Origin: Rhodospirillales bacterium
GTDB lineage: Bacteria; Pseudomonadota; Alphaproteobacteria; Rhodospirillales; Thalassospiraceae
Reading direction: 5' to 3'
NCBI GenBank assembly: GCA_019634165.1
Contig: JAHQVT010000007.1
Coordinates: 248,001 to 312,000 of the forward strand
DNA length: 64,000 nt
Below are positions 40,843-52,080 of the stretch, piece by piece; the first letter of the stretch is position 1; each line of letters begins with the position of its first letter. The notes under the pieces are model-generated. The model was not told where the DNA came from and made no database searches. It worked only from the letters and a program-made list of their open reading frames with translations. The translations under genes and the position numbers were made by a program.

Positions 40843-42165
40843 TTAAGACCGGCGATGCCCGACATTTAGAACACCCTGTTCCAGCGGCTTTAAGCCAAAA
40901 CTGCCACGGCGCGGGCCCGGATGTTCAGAAACATATTTCTCGGCCTCTTGGCGTTCGCTTTCGGTCATGCGGGCAAGAATAGCCCCCATTTCGCGCTGCG
41001 CCTGACTGCCCTCTGCCGGTGCGGACATCCGCAGCCAGTAATAAGCAAGAATATTGTTTTGGTCGACACCGCTGCCAATCGCATAAAGCCGCCCAAGGGC
41101 TGCTTGGCCGTTGGCCGACCCTTTTCGCGCTGCCCGCTCATACCAGGTTGCTGCACGCAGCATATCCACCGGCACGCCAAGTCCATGTTCGTACATCACA
41201 CCAATAAGGTGATAGCCACCCGGATGCCCCAATTCGGCAAGATCCATGGCCAAATCAAGCGCGCTGGCATAATCAGGTTCGCGATGAGGCACACCAAAGA
41301 TCAGGATTTGGGTCATCTGGTATTTGGCCGATGCATCCCCCTGATCACAGGCATGGGTCAACATCGTCCAACCGCGATTAAACAGTTTCAGGTCAGATGA
41401 ATGGCTGAAATACATCGCAAGGTTGGCTTGGGCATATGCATCCCCCTCGCTTGCAGCGAGTTCAAACCAACTAATACTTTCGGCAATATTGCGCTCTGCG
41501 CCAAGGCCCACGCCAAGCGCATAGCCAAGGGCGGATGCGGCCTCGACACTTCCGGCACGCGCAGCACGCATGTTGTATTCAAATGACTTGGCCGGGTCCC
41601 GGCTTACCCCGCGCCCTTCAAGATAAAGATAAGCAAGAACACTTGCCGCAGACGGATCATTTAGCTCGCTTGCGCGCTCAAAATACTCGACCGCCTTTTC
41701 GTCATCTTGGGGAACACCCCAACCGTTCAAATAACAGACGCCAAGGTTATAAAGGGCTGCGACAGAACCGAACTCGATCGCTTCCTCGAACCAATGGGCC
41801 GCAGTCTGAGCATTTTCCTGAACACCAAGTCCTTTGGCATACAGGTAACCAAGATTGTTCGCTGAAATCGACCCGCCAGAAGATGCTTCGTCGTGGAACC
41901 AATAGGCGGCTTCACGGTACCATTGCTGGCCTTCGCCAAGATCCTCGGAAACGCCGAGTCCCTTGCTGCGCATGTACCCATAGCAAACAGCAGCAAATGC
42001 GCGGCTTTGGCGGTGAATTTGGTCTAAAATGCGCCGGGTCGCGGACTCATCACGCGGCATCCCGTCGCCGTCAAAATGCTTTTGGGCAAGTGAAAGCTGC
42101 GCGAAAATGTCTTTTTCGACATTCGCTTCATCGTAATAGACCATTTTAAGTGCACGATCCATCAC
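40843..42165 (-). CDS. Sel1-like repeat protein
   Basis: A 440-residue protein built of Sel1-type helical repeats (LGYLYAKGLGVQENAQTAAHWFEEA, LGVCYLNGWGVPQDDEKAVEYF, and several more) from about residue 25 to 400, no signal peptide. Such repeats bind proteins. It lies at the end of the motility run on the same strand, separated by 96 bases from the AMIN/TPR gene. Possible motor or polarity role is inference. Confidence 0.85.
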   Translation of the reverse strand: MMDRALKMVYYDEANVEKDIFAQLSLAQKHFDGDGMPRDESATRRILDQIHRQSRAFAAVCYGYMRSKGLGVSEDLGEGQQWYREAAYWFHDEASSGGSISANNLGYLYAKGLGVQENAQTAAHWFEEAIEFGSVAALYNLGVCYLNGWGVPQDDEKAVEYFERASELNDPSAASVLAYLYLEGRGVSRDPAKSFEYNMRAARAGSVEAASALGYALGVGLGAERNIAESISWFELAASEGDAYAQANLAMYFSHSSDLKLFNRGWTMLTHACDQGDASAKYQMTQILIFGVPHREPDYASALDLAMDLAELGHPGGYHLIGVMYEHGLGVPVDMLRAATWYERAARKGSANGQAALGRLYAIGSGVDQNNILAYYWLRMSAPAEGSQAQREMGAILARMTESERQEAEKYVSEHPGPRRGSFGLKPLEQGVLNVGHRRS

Positions 42166-45776: not shown

Positions 45777-46505
45777 TTACGTGCCTCCGATCCCACTTCC
45801 CCCATGAGGTTCGATAACAATATCGACACGGCGCGCCATTGAAAAACGCGCCTCCTCATCTAGCAACTTAGGAAGCTGGTCGTATCTTGATGCAGCAAAT
45901 CCGTAAATATTTATGTAATCTGTATAACCTGATTTTTTTAACTCGTTGGCAACAGCACCGGCACGGGCCAAAGAAAGTTCCCAGTTCGATGCATATTTAC
46001 CACGACCACTCAGCGGTCTTGGGTCCGTATGGCCCTGCACACCTATGCGGTTACCGATATTTCTAAGCACACCACCCAACACGAACAAGGCCTGCTGTGC
46101 CTGTGTGGTCATGTCCGAGCTGCCCGCAACAAATAAAATATCGCCTGGCAACGAAATCACCAGTTTATCAGCGTCGCGCGACATACGTGCGTCACCCAAA
46201 ACCGGATTATCATCAATTGCATCATCAATCACCGCACTGAGATAATCCAAGTTCATCGCAGGTTTACGATAAACACGTGGAATATTCAGACTGGCCATTG
46301 GCTCGTCGTTTTCTTCCTTCGGTGCAGGCTTGATGCTTTGTGACAGTGAATCAACAACTTCGTCCCAACGGTCAACCTTGACCTTGGACATCGCAAACAG
46401 CATCACAAAGAATGTCAGCAACAGCGAAATCAGATCGGCAAGGCTCAGCATCCAGACAGGTGGTCCGGTTGGACCATCGTCTTTTTTAAATTCTTCTTCT
46501 GCCAT
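45777..46505 (-). CDS. MotB-like stator protein (aspartate present)
   Basis: A 242-residue protein with one membrane helix bearing the stator signature LADLISLLLTFFVMLFAMS, in which D24 is the proton-carrying residue of MotB, and a C-terminal OmpA-like peptidoglycan-binding domain (VQGHTDPRP, SNWELSLARAGAV). The ATG at 46505 overlaps the stop of the preceding gene (TGATG). No motA is in the window, so its channel partner is encoded elsewhere. Named MotB-like because motB itself may be a different gene. Confidence 0.9.
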   Translation of the reverse strand: MAEEEFKKDDGPTGPPVWMLSLADLISLLLTFFVMLFAMSKVKVDRWDEVVDSLSQSIKPAPKEENDEPMASLNIPRVYRKPAMNLDYLSAVIDDAIDDNPVLGDARMSRDADKLVISLPGDILFVAGSSDMTTQAQQALFVLGGVLRNIGNRIGVQGHTDPRPLSGRGKYASNWELSLARAGAVANELKKSGYTDYINIYGFAASRYDQLPKLLDEEARFSMARRVDIVIEPHGGSGIGGT

Positions 46506-47380
46506 CAACTGCCTCCCCCGGCTTGCGGTCCAAGCGGTATAGGCTGATTAGCAGAAGGCTGACCAGCGCCAGGCAAAGGAATTGTCATTCTTTGCGGAAT
46601 TAACTGCGCTGGCGCAGGTATGTTGCTGCCGGTTGTACCGTTGGCCCCGCCATCTTGCGCTGGCGTTTGTGGCTGACCATTGCCGTTTCCATTGGTTCTT
46701 TCAATCGGCTCTGGCGGTTCTTTCGGACCATAGTTCCAGAAGAAACGGAATGTCACAATGAACGGATCAGCGCCGGGATCGATACCGACATACAAGCGGT
46801 CTTGTGGCGCGCCAACATCAATGAGTTCGCGCGCGAATGAACCTGCCCGTGCAATTTGCAGATTGTTTTCAATCTCGATCGCACCTTTTGAACCAATCTG
46901 ACTGCCCATCACCATTTCCATCTCATAGGACGCATAGCCTTCATCGTCGCCCAGCACTTCTGCCAGTTGCTTCATGAAGTCGGCCTGCCGTTCACGAATC
47001 AGGATGGAATTGGGGTCAAACAATTGTTCAACATGCATGATGATTTCCATCAACTTTCCCGGCTGGATCACTTGAACACGCACCACTTTAATGGCGGTTT
47101 CAAACAGATGGCCAAGTTTTTCCTGCATGTCTTCAGCCGCAACAACCGGTCCCTCGATCGAGGTCACGGTTTGCAGACTGGTGGTCGGCGGAAGGATTGC
47201 CGCGAATGCAGAAGACAGACTTTCTTGCACTTCGCGGGTTTTGACCTCTTCAAAGGTCGAAATGGTGTTTAGAAGAATAAAGAAGGCAAGCAGCAAAAGA
47301 TAGAGAGCCAGGAACAGGGCCACCGCCCCATTAGAAGGGGGGGATGGTGGTGTAGGTCCGTCATCCTCTATCTCCGCCAT
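46505..47380 (-). CDS. Degenerate MotB-like protein (aspartate replaced by alanine)
   Basis: A 291-residue protein with the same plan as its neighbour: one N-terminal membrane helix (GAVALFLALYLLLLAFFILLNTI, about 18-40), coiled region, and an OmpA-like domain (LFDPNSILIRERQADFM ... IARAGSFARELI). Aligned on the shared FF pair, the stator aspartate is replaced by A25, and the HTDxxP peptidoglycan motif is lost. A Pro/Gly/Gln-rich tail ends the protein. It should not carry protons; a structural or regulatory partner of the neighbouring MotB-like protein is likely. Follows cheZ by 11 bases. Confidence 0.88.
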   Translation of the reverse strand: MAEIEDDGPTPPSPPSNGAVALFLALYLLLLAFFILLNTISTFEEVKTREVQESLSSAFAAILPPTTSLQTVTSIEGPVVAAEDMQEKLGHLFETAIKVVRVQVIQPGKLMEIIMHVEQLFDPNSILIRERQADFMKQLAEVLGDDEGYASYEMEMVMGSQIGSKGAIEIENNLQIARAGSFARELIDVGAPQDRLYVGIDPGADPFIVTFRFFWNYGPKEPPEPIERTNGNGNGQPQTPAQDGGANGTTGSNIPAPAQLIPQRMTIPLPGAGQPSANQPIPLGPQAGGGS

Positions 47381-47391
47381 ATCAACGCCAC

Positions 47392-48033
47392 TTAATTAAA
47401 CATCGCGTCGATGTCAGCTTGCGATACGCCTTTGCCTTCAAGTTGAGGCCCGTTAAGCAACGCAGCTTCGCCTTCGAGTTCTTCTTTCTTCTTGGGATTG
47501 GCGGCGGCAAATTTGGCAATTTCCTCACCAAAGGCAGCCACAAGTCCCTCAACGCGTTCTTCGATAGATTTCAACGCCTTGATAACTTTGGTCGTCCGTT
47601 GCCCGGTAATATCCTGGAAGTTACAGGCTTCATAAACCCGCATGGTCGCACCGGTCACAATTTCTGCCTGTTCAGGCGGCAATGTAGCGGCGAATTCTTC
47701 CAAGGCATCCATGGCATCAAGGATTTCATGGGTGGCCCCGGCTGCTGCTTCCACAATGGCGTCCAACTCATCGGTCGCATTGGGAATGTATTCAGCCTTG
47801 ATATCGTCTGGACGAAGGGATGCAATCTCGGACTTCATCTGATGGATGATGCCCGAAAGTTGATCCAGCTCGCCAAACAGGCGCTGTTGGTCCGCTGACG
47901 GCTTGTCACCCATAAAGCGTGACAATTGATCCATCAGACCAGACAGTTGCTCCACCTTCAGATCATCGCCATCAAGGCGTGCCTGAAGCTCATTTAACAA
48001 CTGCCGGAGCTCGTCCTTCGACGCTTTGGACAT
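47392..48033 (-). CDS. cheZ: CheY-P phosphatase CheZ
   Basis: A 213-residue chemotaxis phosphatase. The catalytic motif QDITGQ gives D141 and Q145, the same 4-residue spacing as D143 and Q147 of E. coli. The C-terminal GVSQADIDAMFN is the CheY-binding tail. Follows cheY by 36 bases. Confidence 0.92.
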   Translation of the reverse strand: MSKASKDELRQLLNELQARLDGDDLKVEQLSGLMDQLSRFMGDKPSADQQRLFGELDQLSGIIHQMKSEIASLRPDDIKAEYIPNATDELDAIVEAAAGATHEILDAMDALEEFAATLPPEQAEIVTGATMRVYEACNFQDITGQRTTKVIKALKSIEERVEGLVAAFGEEIAKFAAANPKKKEELEGEAALLNGPQLEGKGVSQADIDAMFN

Positions 48034-48069
48034 AGGCGGTATCGCGGGACAATTGTCCCGCGCTCCTAA

Positions 48070-48456
48070 TCAGAAATCACCAATAACGGTCTTCATTTTA
48101 CCCTTCAACGTCTCAGCGTTGAACGGCTTGACGATGTAGTTGGATACACCAGCTTTTTTCGCCATGACGACGTTTTCGGTTTTGGCTTCTGCGGTAATCA
48201 TGATGAAGGGCATATCCTTCAACTTCGCATCTGCACGGACTTCTTTCAAAAGCTGAAGACCGGTCATCGGCTCCATATTCCAGTCAGAAATAACAAGACT
48301 GAACGGAGCTTCGCGCAGTTTACGAAGCGCCATGCTACCATCGGTCGCTTCTTCAATATTCGTAAAGTTGAGCTGCCGCAGAAGGTTACGGATGATACGC
48401 AACATTGTTTTGTAATCATCCACAATCAGGATCGGCATATTCGGATCGACGGCCAT
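48070..48456 (-). CDS. cheY: Chemotaxis response regulator CheY
   Basis: A 128-residue single receiver domain: acidic pair D13/D14, phosphorylation site D58 in VISDWNM, T in MITAEA and K in IVKPF. Binds FliM when phosphorylated and reverses rotation. Next to cheZ, its phosphatase. The leader (48457-48676) contains an imperfect hairpin (CCTTGCC arms). Confidence 0.94.
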   Translation of the reverse strand: MAVDPNMPILIVDDYKTMLRIIRNLLRQLNFTNIEEATDGSMALRKLREAPFSLVISDWNMEPMTGLQLLKEVRADAKLKDMPFIMITAEAKTENVVMAKKAGVSNYIVKPFNAETLKGKMKTVIGDF

Positions 48457-48676: not shown

Positions 48677-49396
48677 CTATTGCAGCGGCAGCATATTAAT
48701 ATCTTGTTTATAGGCGAGCTCGGTGGTCAACGCCCGCGCCCGATCTGGTGTCATTTGTGACAGGACTGCAGCGGTATTTGCTTCGCGCATGCCCAAGGCC
48801 ACTTGCAGAAGGATATCCATATCAAGATCGTTCCAGATACGAGCAGCGTCTTTTGGCTTCATCTTCTCATAAACACTGATCAGCTTTTTGATACGATCAT
48901 CTTCCTGCGCTTCCTTGGTCTCGACCAAACCTTCTATGGCCGTCTTCAAGGATTTCATCTCTTCAATTTTTGCATCAATCCGGGCTTCAGCAGCCGCAAT
49001 CAAGCTTTCACGTTCGTCAAGGCGTTGTTCTTTGCGATCCAGTTCTCCGCGTCGTACGGAAAGGTTCTGCAACAGATCGATTTCTTCCTGGGTGAACAGG
49101 GTCGGGTCCCCACCAAGTGTCGGCGCAATATCTGAGTCCCCGTTTAACGGATCACCTTCCATCGTCAGCCCAGCGGGATCGTCAAGACCAGGGTCGCCAT
49201 TTTCTGGCGTCGCTGCCTGTTCGGCGGCGGGTTCCGTTGCCGGTGCCTGCGCCTGTGCGGTTTGCACCATGCTCACAGCCACTGGCTCGGAAGTTACGGC
49301 AACATCCGAACTTCCGGAGAACAGGTTTACCACCCGCATTGACAACACCATCAGCCCAACAAGGACAACCAATGGCAAGATACGCACACCAGACAT
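48677..49396 (-). CDS. MotE-like protein
   Basis: A 239-residue protein with an N-terminal membrane or signal segment (about 6-24), a Pro/Ala/Glu-rich stretch, a coiled coil (about 103-168) and a C-terminal MgtE-N-like region (VYEKMKPKDAARIWNDLD, AAVLSQMTPDRARALTTEL). This is the plan of rhizobial MotE, the periplasmic chaperone for MotC. Gene symbol withheld because the match is by architecture. 148 bases from the DUF6468-like gene. Confidence 0.8.
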   Translation of the reverse strand: MSGVRILPLVVLVGLMVLSMRVVNLFSGSSDVAVTSEPVAVSMVQTAQAQAPATEPAAEQAATPENGDPGLDDPAGLTMEGDPLNGDSDIAPTLGGDPTLFTQEEIDLLQNLSVRRGELDRKEQRLDERESLIAAAEARIDAKIEEMKSLKTAIEGLVETKEAQEDDRIKKLISVYEKMKPKDAARIWNDLDMDILLQVALGMREANTAAVLSQMTPDRARALTTELAYKQDINMLPLQ

Positions 49397-49544: not shown

Positions 49545-50306
49545 TTATCTCACTGACCGCAATGCTGCGAGCAGTTCTCGTTCAGCCTCAGAACGACCAG
49601 CATCTTCGTCTTGGTCGTACAGATCAGCCCCAGATGGGCCATTACTTCCCGCGCCAGAAAAGCGGTCAGATTCACCATAACCACCAGTACTACCGCCAAG
49701 CGATACATCATCACGATCAAGGCGATCATTGCTTGGTCCTTTTGAACCACGCTCGATCTCGCCAACCATACGGGCTGCCAGTTCTTCTGCGCGGGTTTCA
49801 ACCCCGACCCGGTCGCGGTCGCGGTCATGATCATGGCCACGGTCATCAATTATATCAGGGCGGTCTTTTCCGCTGCCACGTAAGCTGCCATTACCAGCAC
49901 CTGACGGGCTGCTCATCGTGCCACTGTCTGCGCCGCCAACAACCGGTCCCTGACCTGCTTGAGCATTCCCCGACCGCCGAACAGCATTAACGTCACTTGC
50001 TGCTTTCTCAAGACGATTGGCAATGCTTTCGCCGCGATCGGCCATAAAGGTCAGGTCTTCGTTAAGTGCACTGGCCTTTTCAATATCTTCACGCAGACGT
50101 TCACCAGACTGTTCTGCCATATCCTTAAGGGCCATGATTGATGTTTCGGCCCGTTCGTTGGCGGCATTAAAAGCCGTTAGGAAATTTTGCATGTCTTCGC
50201 GGCTGCGGCGAAATGCCGCAAGCTTGCGGTTTAAAATCACCGCATAAACAATCGTCGCAACAAGCAGGACGATCATTAAAAGATCCAGATAGAACGCGAA
50301 GTCCAT
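49545..50306 (-). CDS. DUF6468-like membrane protein
   Basis: A 253-residue protein with one N-terminal membrane helix (about 7-24), a helical segment RRSREDMQNFLTAFNAANERAETSI that resembles the alphaproteobacterial DUF6468 region, and a Gly/Asp/Arg-rich tail. Its start overlaps the fliM stop by one base. Function unknown; position ties it to the motor switch. Confidence 0.75.
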   Translation of the reverse strand: MDFAFYLDLLMIVLLVATIVYAVILNRKLAAFRRSREDMQNFLTAFNAANERAETSIMALKDMAEQSGERLREDIEKASALNEDLTFMADRGESIANRLEKAASDVNAVRRSGNAQAGQGPVVGGADSGTMSSPSGAGNGSLRGSGKDRPDIIDDRGHDHDRDRDRVGVETRAEELAARMVGEIERGSKGPSNDRLDRDDVSLGGSTGGYGESDRFSGAGSNGPSGADLYDQDEDAGRSEAERELLAALRSVR

Positions 50307-51442
50307 CAGCTTTCTTCCTCGTTTATGCGCGCGCGATCTCGAACCTGAATTGCGATCCGGTCCCCTTTACGCCCCATCATCCCCTTGAACAGCGGAACGT
50401 CTCCGCACCTTACTTCAACAGGGGATGTCGGACTGGTATTAAGAACCAGACGGTTGCCCACTTCAAGATTGATGACATCACCAAGTGGCATCACCTGCTC
50501 GTCAAGGACGGCTAATAGGTTAACATGGGTCTGCCACAGTTCGTTTGCGAGATGGTTTTCCCAGATTGAGTCACGACCGAACTTTTCCCCCATGAACATC
50601 TGAAGCAGAAGCTCACGTACAGGCTCAAGCGTTGCGTATGGGATCAGCAGTTCAAGGCGTCCACCGCGATCTTCCATATCAATACGCAGTTTCGCGACAA
50701 TCGCAGCATTCGCATGGCGGGCAATCGTTGCAAAACGTGGGTTTGTTTCAAGACGCTCGAAACGGAACGTTACCGGGCTTAACGGGTCAAACGCGGCCGA
50801 AAGGTCACCAAGGACCACATGGATCATACGTTCAACAAGGTTACGTTCAATCGTGGTATAGGGGCGACCTTCAATACGCATTGCTGCAGTACCACGGCGC
50901 CCACCAAGCAGAACGTCCACGATAGAATAAATCAGGGCCGAATCAACGGTCAGAAGTCCGTAGTTATCCCATTCCTCAGCCTTGAAAACACCCAACATTG
51001 CTGGCAACGGGATCGAGTTCAGATAGTCCCCGAAACGCAGCGACAAGATGTTATCAAGCGAAACTTCAACGTTGTCCGATGTAAAGTTACGAAGCGATGT
51101 CGACATCATACGTACAAGACGGTCAAATACGACTTCAAGCATCGGAAGTCGTTCATAAGCCACCATTGACGAGTTGATGATGGCCTGAATGCCCGACTGG
51201 TCACCAGCACCTGATCCGTCATCAAAGCCCAGAAGACTATCGATCTCGTCCTGGTTTAGAACACGCGCAGATGTACCGCCGCCGACAGCAGGTTCTTCGT
51301 CGCCTTCCTCTTCATCATCGTCGCCGAGCATGGATTCCCATTCGGCGGCCATATCCTCGCCGCCGTCATCTCCGCCGTCGTCGTCACCCGCCATGGCTTC
51401 CCATTCAGCGGCGAGTGCATCATCATCGTCTTCATCAGCCAT
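50306..51442 (-). CDS. fliM: Flagellar motor switch protein FliM
   Basis: C-ring switch component that binds CheY-P. The 378-residue protein has a long acidic N-terminal extension with two AAEWE(A/S)M repeats at 11-17 and 32-38, then the CheY-binding-like NQDEIDSLLGF at 63-73, the central FliM domain and a C-terminal SpoA domain (ending LFKGMMGRKGDRIAIQV). In E. coli the EIDALL motif is at the very N-terminus, so 60 extra residues are unusual. Follows fliL by 42 bases. Confidence 0.97.
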   Translation of the reverse strand: MADEDDDDALAAEWEAMAGDDDGGDDGGEDMAAEWESMLGDDDEEEGDEEPAVGGGTSARVLNQDEIDSLLGFDDGSGAGDQSGIQAIINSSMVAYERLPMLEVVFDRLVRMMSTSLRNFTSDNVEVSLDNILSLRFGDYLNSIPLPAMLGVFKAEEWDNYGLLTVDSALIYSIVDVLLGGRRGTAAMRIEGRPYTTIERNLVERMIHVVLGDLSAAFDPLSPVTFRFERLETNPRFATIARHANAAIVAKLRIDMEDRGGRLELLIPYATLEPVRELLLQMFMGEKFGRDSIWENHLANELWQTHVNLLAVLDEQVMPLGDVINLEVGNRLVLNTSPTSPVEVRCGDVPLFKGMMGRKGDRIAIQVRDRARINEEES

Positions 51443-51484: not shown

Positions 51485-52021
51485 TTATTGTACCAGCATT
51501 TCCTTGAACAAAACGTCGTTAATTTTCGCCGGTTTTGCAGCGGCACTAACACGTATCAGCAATTCTTCGCGTAATCGGAACATCCCCTCCGATCCCGACA
51601 GATCTTCTGGTCGCAATTCACGAAGGTAAATCTGGAAATTATCAACGATCCGCGGCATCATTGTTTCGACTTGCGGCAGCATTGCCTGATCCGCAACTTC
51701 AAGACTGACACGAATTTTCAGATAACTTTGCTTGCCGCCGCCTGTATTCAGATTGACCAGAATTTCAGGAAGATCGACAAAGCCAACATTCTCGGGGACG
51801 CCTGGCGCCTCTTCGATTGAATCTTCCGAGATAACTTCTTCGGTCTGCGCACTATCGCCACCGGTCAACATATCAATCACTGGCTGAAGCATCCCGGTAA
51901 AGTATGCTGCGGCCGCACCGCCAAGCAAAAGCAGCACAAGCAAAATGACCACAACCAGCATCTTCTTGCTGCGGCCACCGCCACCTTCGTCCATTTCAAT
52001 TTCGTCGGCTTCTTCGCCCAT
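51485..52021 (-). CDS. fliL: Flagellar basal body protein FliL
   Basis: A 178-residue inner-membrane stator-associated protein with one membrane helix (about 21-41) and the FliL periplasmic domain (KQSYLKIRVSLEVADQ ... LRPEDLSGSEGMFRLREELL). Start 52021 is chosen because a sigma-54 promoter at 52064-52080 would begin transcription near 52053, downstream of the alternative GTG at 52072. Confidence 0.95.
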   Translation of the reverse strand: MGEEADEIEMDEGGGGRSKKMLVVVILLVLLLLGGAAAAYFTGMLQPVIDMLTGGDSAQTEEVISEDSIEEAPGVPENVGFVDLPEILVNLNTGGGKQSYLKIRVSLEVADQAMLPQVETMMPRIVDNFQIYLRELRPEDLSGSEGMFRLREELLIRVSAAAKPAKINDVLFKEMLVQ

Positions 52022-52063
52022 CGCTTCGCAAATTCCTGCGTTTGAAGTTCCGCCTTCACATAC

Positions 52064-52080
52064 AGCAAACACTGTGCCGG
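52064..52080 (-). promoter_or_regulatory. Sigma-54 promoter of fliL
   Basis: CCGGCACAGTGTTTGCT on the minus strand; GG at 52078-52077 and GC at 52066-52065, 12 apart. Matches GGCAC-N5-TTGC with C in place of T at the first position. Confidence 0.75.

Follow-up and report, generated by a model that had tools for sequence, protein, structure and literature searches.

An aspartate-free MotB-type protein paired with an aspartate-bearing one across the alphaproteobacteria: probable axle subunits of a heteromeric flagellar stator with one ion site

Two overlapping flagellar genes in the 64,000-nt stretch of alphaproteobacterial DNA analysed here (the window) encode MotB-type proteins, B1 and B2; B2 carries the ion-binding aspartate of a stator, B1 has alanine in its place, and the pair is kept across the class in genomes that mostly also encode a PomA-type MotA (P0003) with no MotB gene of its own beside it. 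B1 and B2 are probably the two axle subunits of one MotA5-B1-B2 stator built with P0003 and holding a single ion site. The observed basis of this reading consists of the sequences themselves and how they are conserved, the order and co-occurrence of the genes, the folds predicted for single chains, and the rows of three adjacent genes found outside the class; from these we infer a physical B1-B2 heterodimer, its single ion site, a cost of five ions per turn, the use of Na+ and docking to MotK and MotE.

The pair lies in a cluster on the minus strand (Table 1), transcribed in the order fliL, fliM, DUF6468 gene, MotE-like gene, cheY, cheZ, B1, B2, MotK-like gene and Sel1-repeat gene. An earlier note made from the letters of the window had described two overlapping MotB-like genes in a cluster with cheY, cheZ, a MotE-like gene and an AMIN/TPR gene, and both descriptions hold: the two reading frames are as it gave them, the stop codon of B1 sharing one base with the ATG of B2 (TGATG), and the named neighbours are all present around them. 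The label MotK-like denotes architecture and gene position only, the AMIN and TPR matches being below cut-off. The cheY and cheZ genes (47392-48456) separate the MotE-like gene from the MotB pair. The best named-contig matches to B1 come from Thalassospira. Rfam gave no match within 40-56 kb of the window, and P0002 gave no plasmid match and no PHROGs match.

Table 1. Genes of the B1-B2 cluster, in window coordinates.
Feature	Position	Strand	Remarks
Sel1-repeat protein	40843-42165	-	after the MotK-like gene
MotK-like protein, 1170 aa	42262..45774	-	weak AMIN and TPR matches; directly 3' of B2
B2, MotB/PomB-like, 243 aa	45777..46508	-	TTG start, ATG at 46505; stator Asp codon 46434-46436; S27 (counted from the ATG, as in PomB); HTD motif
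B1, MotB-like, 291 aa	46505..47380	-	TM helix with A25 (codon 47306-47308) replacing the stator Asp; periplasmic part with predicted OmpA/MotB-type fold, no HTD motif and a low-confidence C-terminal tail
CheZ-type phosphatase	47392..48033	-	PF04344
CheY-type response regulator	48070..48456	-	
MotE-like protein	48677..49396	-	weak MgtE_N and FlbB-collar matches, both below curated cut-offs
DUF6468 protein	49545..50306	-	PF20072; upstream of the MotE-like gene
FliM, flagellar switch protein	50306..51442	-	PF02154
FliL	51485..52072	-	PF03748

Conservation was read in three sets of loci: set A (61 loci), made up of the window and 60 loci picked from B1 or B2 matches in a 150-genome sample of the order; set B, the best 80 of 138 named-contig matches; and set C, 60 loci of the class chosen for family spread, from a profile search of 385 genomes that matched 144 at E<=0.001. 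Residue counts for B1 (n=119) are taken from sets A and C, both collected without a motif filter; the search pattern of set B ([AGS]L[YF]LL...) itself demands A, G or S at the site, and its 80/80 A/G/S is excluded from them.

The second protein of the pair, as the earlier note had it, keeps D24 and the HTDxxP motif: B2 has the aspartate at position 24 when numbered from the ATG (D25 should translation begin at the upstream TTG) and the motif GHTDPRP, with domain matches to MotB_plug (6.4e-14) and OmpA (5.6e-10). B1 has A25 at the stator-aspartate site, a marginal MotB_plug match (24.2 bits vs a cut-off of 24) and, in the domain search, no OmpA match. The register from which the earlier note read this position, set by a shared FF pair, is correct, since A25 lands in the aspartate column when 58 B1 and 61 B2 proteins are aligned together with three canonical MotB proteins of the same genome. 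The alanine and the missing wall motif that it reported are moreover general features: the site holds A, G or S in 114 of 119 B1 proteins, D in three, P in one and N in one, and the H[TS]D wall-binding pattern, searched as a simple pattern, occurs in 1/119 B1 vs 56/117 B2. The B2 site is Asp in all 197 proteins of sets A, B and C, and tryptophan stands six residues before it in 118/119 B2 vs 5/119 B1. Judged from these aligned sequences, the split between A/G/S in B1 and D in B2 is not due to chance. An aspartate elsewhere in the B1 helix, which that note had named as grounds for abandoning its claim, was looked for and not found: between positions -3 and +15 of the site, 116 of 119 B1 proteins have no acidic residue, and in the other three it is the D at the site itself, so that a misaligned helix is rejected. 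The H[TS]D pattern is also gone from B2 in many lineages (for example L086, L087 and L091-L097), which reads as if the scaffold, and not the wall, anchored the stator there.

The three aspartate-bearing B1 proteins (L069, genome G092; L209, G189; L223, G270) are natural two-aspartate versions of the pair. Their sequences indicate that Asp at the B1 site is tolerated in some lineages, where it has been kept or regained. The trees do not establish an ancestral aspartate in B1: L209 and L223 are basal to B1 in the tree built with the helix and fall inside B1 when the helix is left out, and L069 lies deep within B1 in both trees. The P0003-type MotA orthologue is absent from two of these three genomes (G092 and G270), a small number from incomplete assemblies.

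Its transmembrane helix is the best-conserved part of B1, with a mean of 3.15 bits vs 1.58 for the remaining well-filled columns of a 117-row alignment; F33 and F34 are each kept in 115/117, and F33, F34, L31 and L37 stand in register with F32, F33, L30 and L36 of B2. Small residues are common in this helix only at the aspartate site (offset 0, 114/119) and at +7 (109/119), occurring elsewhere in at most 11/119; sequence positions 0 and +7 share one helix face, which suggests tight packing against a partner. In a tree of 48 B1, 48 B2 and 18 other MotB rows, the B1 proteins form a single clade that excludes all the others (support 100/100), and the clade persists with the helix cut away (SH-aLRT 99); because B1 is a single separate clade, the loss of its aspartate is old and has been kept.

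The single-protein structure prediction that had been proposed as a check was run on both proteins. AF2 (with 70 B1 sequences) gave for B1 a long N-terminal helix and a periplasmic domain (mean pLDDT 75.7, pTM 0.53), which Foldseek matched to domains of PA0833, YiaD, MotB and PomB (6.5e-7 to about 1e-5) and VIA-align to structures including MotB, PomB, MotS, YiaD and OmpA-like proteins (Z 14.3 to 11.8 over the first seven rows), so that B1 is predicted to have a MotB/OmpA-type fold; a profile of 70 B1 sequences likewise matched MotB and PomB chains of known structure in the PDB, the best of them at E = 4.9e-9 to 9.2e-5. B2 was predicted with a transmembrane helix and the OmpA-like order of elements (pLDDT 84.6). 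Of the features that define a stator B subunit, B2 thus has the Asp-bearing transmembrane helix, the plug and the OmpA-like periplasmic domain; B1 has MotB-type helix and plug homology and the OmpA-like fold, and lacks the aspartate and H[TS]D.

The two genes are rarely seen apart. B2 lies beside B1 in 57/57 loci of the order read with B1, in 78/80 named contigs (the best 80 of 138) and in 58/60 loci of the class; three of the four misses (L127, L164 and L214) reach a contig or locus edge and one (L239) does not. Three loci of the order were first seen with B2 only; two of them (L100 and L101) end at an edge, and the third (L099) has B1 by profile. B1 and B2 are on the same strand in all 174 loci with measurable spacing, with a median overlap of 4 nt, an approximate figure for which the start was set at the earliest Met within a window preceding the helix. 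A MotK-like homologue follows the pair in 58/58, 76/78 and 51/58 loci of sets A, B and C, and a MotE homologue precedes it in 52/58, 74/78 and 45/58, the misses being partly edges and the stretches scanned short. CheY and CheZ genes, like the MotE-like gene, are often upstream of the pair in relatives. A Sel1-repeat homologue lies downstream in 21/78 named contigs. MotB-type genes without the aspartate occur in many alphaproteobacterial genomes and should not be annotated as ordinary MotB.

The earlier note had stated that no motA is present, which is true of the window and fails for the genome, where four MotA-type genes are found, P0003 among them; a true lack of MotA is therefore rejected. 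The six PF01618 proteins of the genome are three MotA with adjacent MotB, one TolQ (in a tolQRA-like row), one ExbB-like protein and the unpaired P0003, and its five MotB_plug proteins are the three MotA-paired MotB, B1 and B2. P0003 is thus the only MotA-type gene without a MotB beside it, and it belongs to the same flagellar supercluster as the pair. The three complete MotA-MotB pairs lie at C5:47 kb, C6:199 kb and C6:639 kb of this genome (G000), so that one cell may hold up to four stator types.

The contig of the window (C7) ends 3,985 bases beyond it, among flagellin genes, and comparison with a relative (G029) indicates that contig C1 continues from that end; by collinearity with G029, P0003, on C1, stands about 34 kb upstream of B1, past the contig break. 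It is flanked by fliN on one side and by a sigma-54 activator and then flhA on the other, with fliF and fliD near. Flagellin genes are found on both sides of the break (L242:138-3223, at the end of C7, and L243:749-2095; 87-88% protein identity), and G029 has several tandem flagellin matches; such near-identical genes may lie behind the break.

P0003 matches a PomA chain at 5.5e-64, and its best NCBIfam model is PomA, below that model's cut-off. PomA residues T158, T185 and T186, which the available part of one study ties to sodium (PMC10374538), are kept in P0003 and in 21/21 orthologues; because P0003 has these three sodium-type threonines, Na+ is, from its sequence, the likely ion of the stator. 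The same three are kept in P0004 and P0005 of the genome and hence are not special to P0003.

Among the 150 genomes of the order sample, B1 and a P0003 orthologue (a match at E<=1e-60) occur together in 93, B1 only in 12, MotA only in 4 and neither in 41. Two of the MotA-only genomes, when read, proved to have a member of the pair, one (G115) having B1 (L090) and the other (G007) B2 at a contig edge (L100); of the 12/105 B1 genomes without the MotA orthologue, seven are less than 90% complete and five are not. Across the class, the orthologue was found in 34 of 36 pair-bearing genomes tested (absent in G207 and G270), in 15 of those 34 on the contig of the pair and 18-45 kb away from it; no P0003-type MotA adjoins the pair in any of the 194 alphaproteobacterial loci scanned. 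At least three MotB_plug proteins are present in 34 of 41 pair-bearing genomes scanned, and so the motor may not depend on the B1-B2 stator.

Outside the class, motA itself adjoins both MotB-type genes. A phylum-wide sample of 398 genomes searched at E<=1e-10 gave matches in 49 genomes, 39 of them outside the class and mostly in one family (f216), and 32 of these 39 loci were read. In 26 of the 32 (within L287-L295 and L302-L321), motA, a MotB-like gene with Glu (24 rows) or Gln (2 rows) at the site and an Asp-bearing motB stand in a row, and the Glu- or Gln-bearing MotB-like protein has no Trp. The other six are one pair at a contig edge, three loci with motA and a single MotB, one incomplete locus and L290, in which motA is followed by two Asp-bearing motB genes in tandem. 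Of the signs that both MotB-type proteins work with one MotA, this adjacency is the strongest. Glu at the site may still carry or bind the ion; Gln would not be expected to. As to a common origin of B1 and the E/Q proteins, B1 stands apart in one tree, and a smaller, quickly built tree joins it to them (support 86).

A second motor family of the 5:2 type in this genome also has a paired axle protein without the aspartate. An ExbB-like gene (G000 contig C8, L003:1081-2781) is followed by two ExbD genes (PF02472, 2.1e-20 and 1.1e-18) whose products differ at the corresponding site, where the first has Asp and the second Asn; in E. coli, ExbD(D25N) is described as an inactive mutant in the part of the source available (PMC11658791). 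The Asn-bearing ExbD matched in 70/150 genomes of the order, the weak matches including ordinary ExbD and TolR. In the best 30 loci (L322-L351), to which no motif filter was applied, the row ExbB, ExbD(D), ExbD(N) occurs 28 times; of the other two loci, one has both ExbD genes but no recognised ExbB, and one has an unclear second open reading frame.

The arrangement that we favour for the flagellar pair can be set out against the two-site model. In that model, in one full turn every A subunit moves past every B subunit a single time, which makes ten ions (PMC9389320), and in Vibrio PomAB the two D24 residues are reported in different states, one engaged and one disengaged (PMC10374538). Here the overlapping genes would supply B1 and B2, and both would sit inside a pentamer of the unpaired PomA-type MotA, B2 as the sole carrier of the ion-binding aspartate. 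The B1 helix, with Ala, Ser or Gly at the place of the aspartate, would fill the second axle position and make of B1 a passive bearing and docking arm; its periplasmic domain, without the wall motif, would probably be held, together with that of B2, by the MotK/MotE-type scaffold of the cluster. A single aspartate would lower the cost to five ions per turn instead of ten. In Cereibacter sphaeroides, MotK and MotE are reported to bind MotB2 and to be required for rotation (PMC10954123, in the portion available), and an excerpt of another source has MotE as likely forming the E-ring (PMC13023049). The earlier note had thought a mixed stator with one inactive arm possible, and this is the best-supported reading of the pair, given its class-wide occurrence, the conserved B1 helix, the co-occurring MotA and the rows outside the class; that B1 and B2 sit together within one MotA pentamer is the part of it that we infer, from gene order and conservation. 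B1 may instead be a motor regulator, which that note had also thought possible, or an accessory protein.

Unlikely, and the better placed of the alternatives, is the view that B1 is an accessory or scaffold protein of MotB ancestry that stays outside the MotA pore and helps a MotK/MotE/FliL scaffold to recruit or unplug a MotA5-B2(2) stator. B1 does share its cluster with MotE- and MotK-like genes, the homologues of which in C. sphaeroides, as far as the text available goes, bind MotB2 and are needed for rotation (PMC10954123), and it has lost the wall motif (H[TS]D in 1/119); however, its helix and not its periplasmic domain is the best-conserved part, in the L/F/F register and with a small residue at the aspartate site, a helix that a protein serving only as an anchor would not obviously need to retain, and outside the class the B1-like gene lies between motA and the Asp-bearing motB. 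Two homodimeric stators sharing one MotA, a conducting MotA5-B2(2) and an inert MotA5-B1(2) that acts as brake or spare, with the ratio of the two setting torque, seem quite improbable: both proteins keep a MotB-type helix and overlapping genes permit co-production of either form, but overlapping and probably coupled genes are ill-suited to a variable ratio, and the fixed pairing in nearly all loci fits an obligate partnership better. A decaying duplicate without function, for which the loss of both aspartate and wall-binding motif might speak, can be dismissed as extremely improbable, B1 being open and conserved over dozens of families as one clade, with A, G or S in 114/119 and a strongly constrained helix.

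The heteromeric MotA5-B1-B2 reading can be widened, tentatively and with somewhat less than an even chance of being right, to an obligately heterodimeric, one-site axle that makes a natural 5:1:1 motor, with five ions per turn, in the alphaproteobacteria and, by a related or separate route, in other members of the phylum, with ExbB-ExbD(D)-ExbD(N) as the same half-axle solution in Ton-type motors. Such a motor would have lower torque and a higher gear than one of the 5:2 type, its second arm being bearing and scaffold-docking arm, and living genomes would preserve a graded series of axle pairs, D/D, D/E, D/Q and D/(A,S,G). Models of the 5:2 stator have two equivalent aspartates alternate and predict ten ions per turn; a one-aspartate stator would test the need for both sites, the step size and a genetically built asymmetry of the axle. 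If the reading is true, a half-powered rotary motor may help to settle the ion cost per turn. A search of the open-licence literature, by title and the start of the abstract, found no report of a MotB pair with one aspartate lost, which is weak evidence of novelty.

Several known systems share parts of this arrangement. Genomes with dual stators (MotAB with MotCD, or MotAB with MotPS), as far as the sources available describe them, resemble the present one in having more than one stator set, three other MotA-MotB pairs being found here. In dual stators as usually described, every MotB comes with a separate MotA and has an aspartate. Here, in contrast, a single MotA appears to serve two MotB-type proteins, only one of which has the aspartate. 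The AglR/AglQ/AglS gliding motor of Myxococcus xanthus likewise combines one MotA homologue with two MotB homologues; this likeness is by description only, and the system differs in driving gliding and in that the conserved aspartate is predicted for AglQ and AglS alike, while the part of the source available does not decide whether these two form a pair (PMC9389320). The Fla2 system of C. sphaeroides (MotA2/MotB2) is also alphaproteobacterial and has fliL, motE and a motK-type AMIN/TPR gene clustered together, and the DUF6468 gene of the window holds roughly the place of pflI in the Fla2 operon, likened by position alone; in the text available, however, one MotB2 is named and motA2 lies within the operon, whereas here there are two MotB-type genes and the MotA is about 34 kb away (PMC10954123). 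The 5:2 stators PomAB and MotAB have in common with the present system a single PomA-type MotA, along with MotB-type subunits that comprise a plug and an OmpA-like domain; the likeness to PomAB extends to Asp24 and S27 of B2 and to the sodium-type threonines of P0003 (PMC10374538, as far as available). The putative B1-B2 stator would be a variant of the MotAB/PomAB stator.
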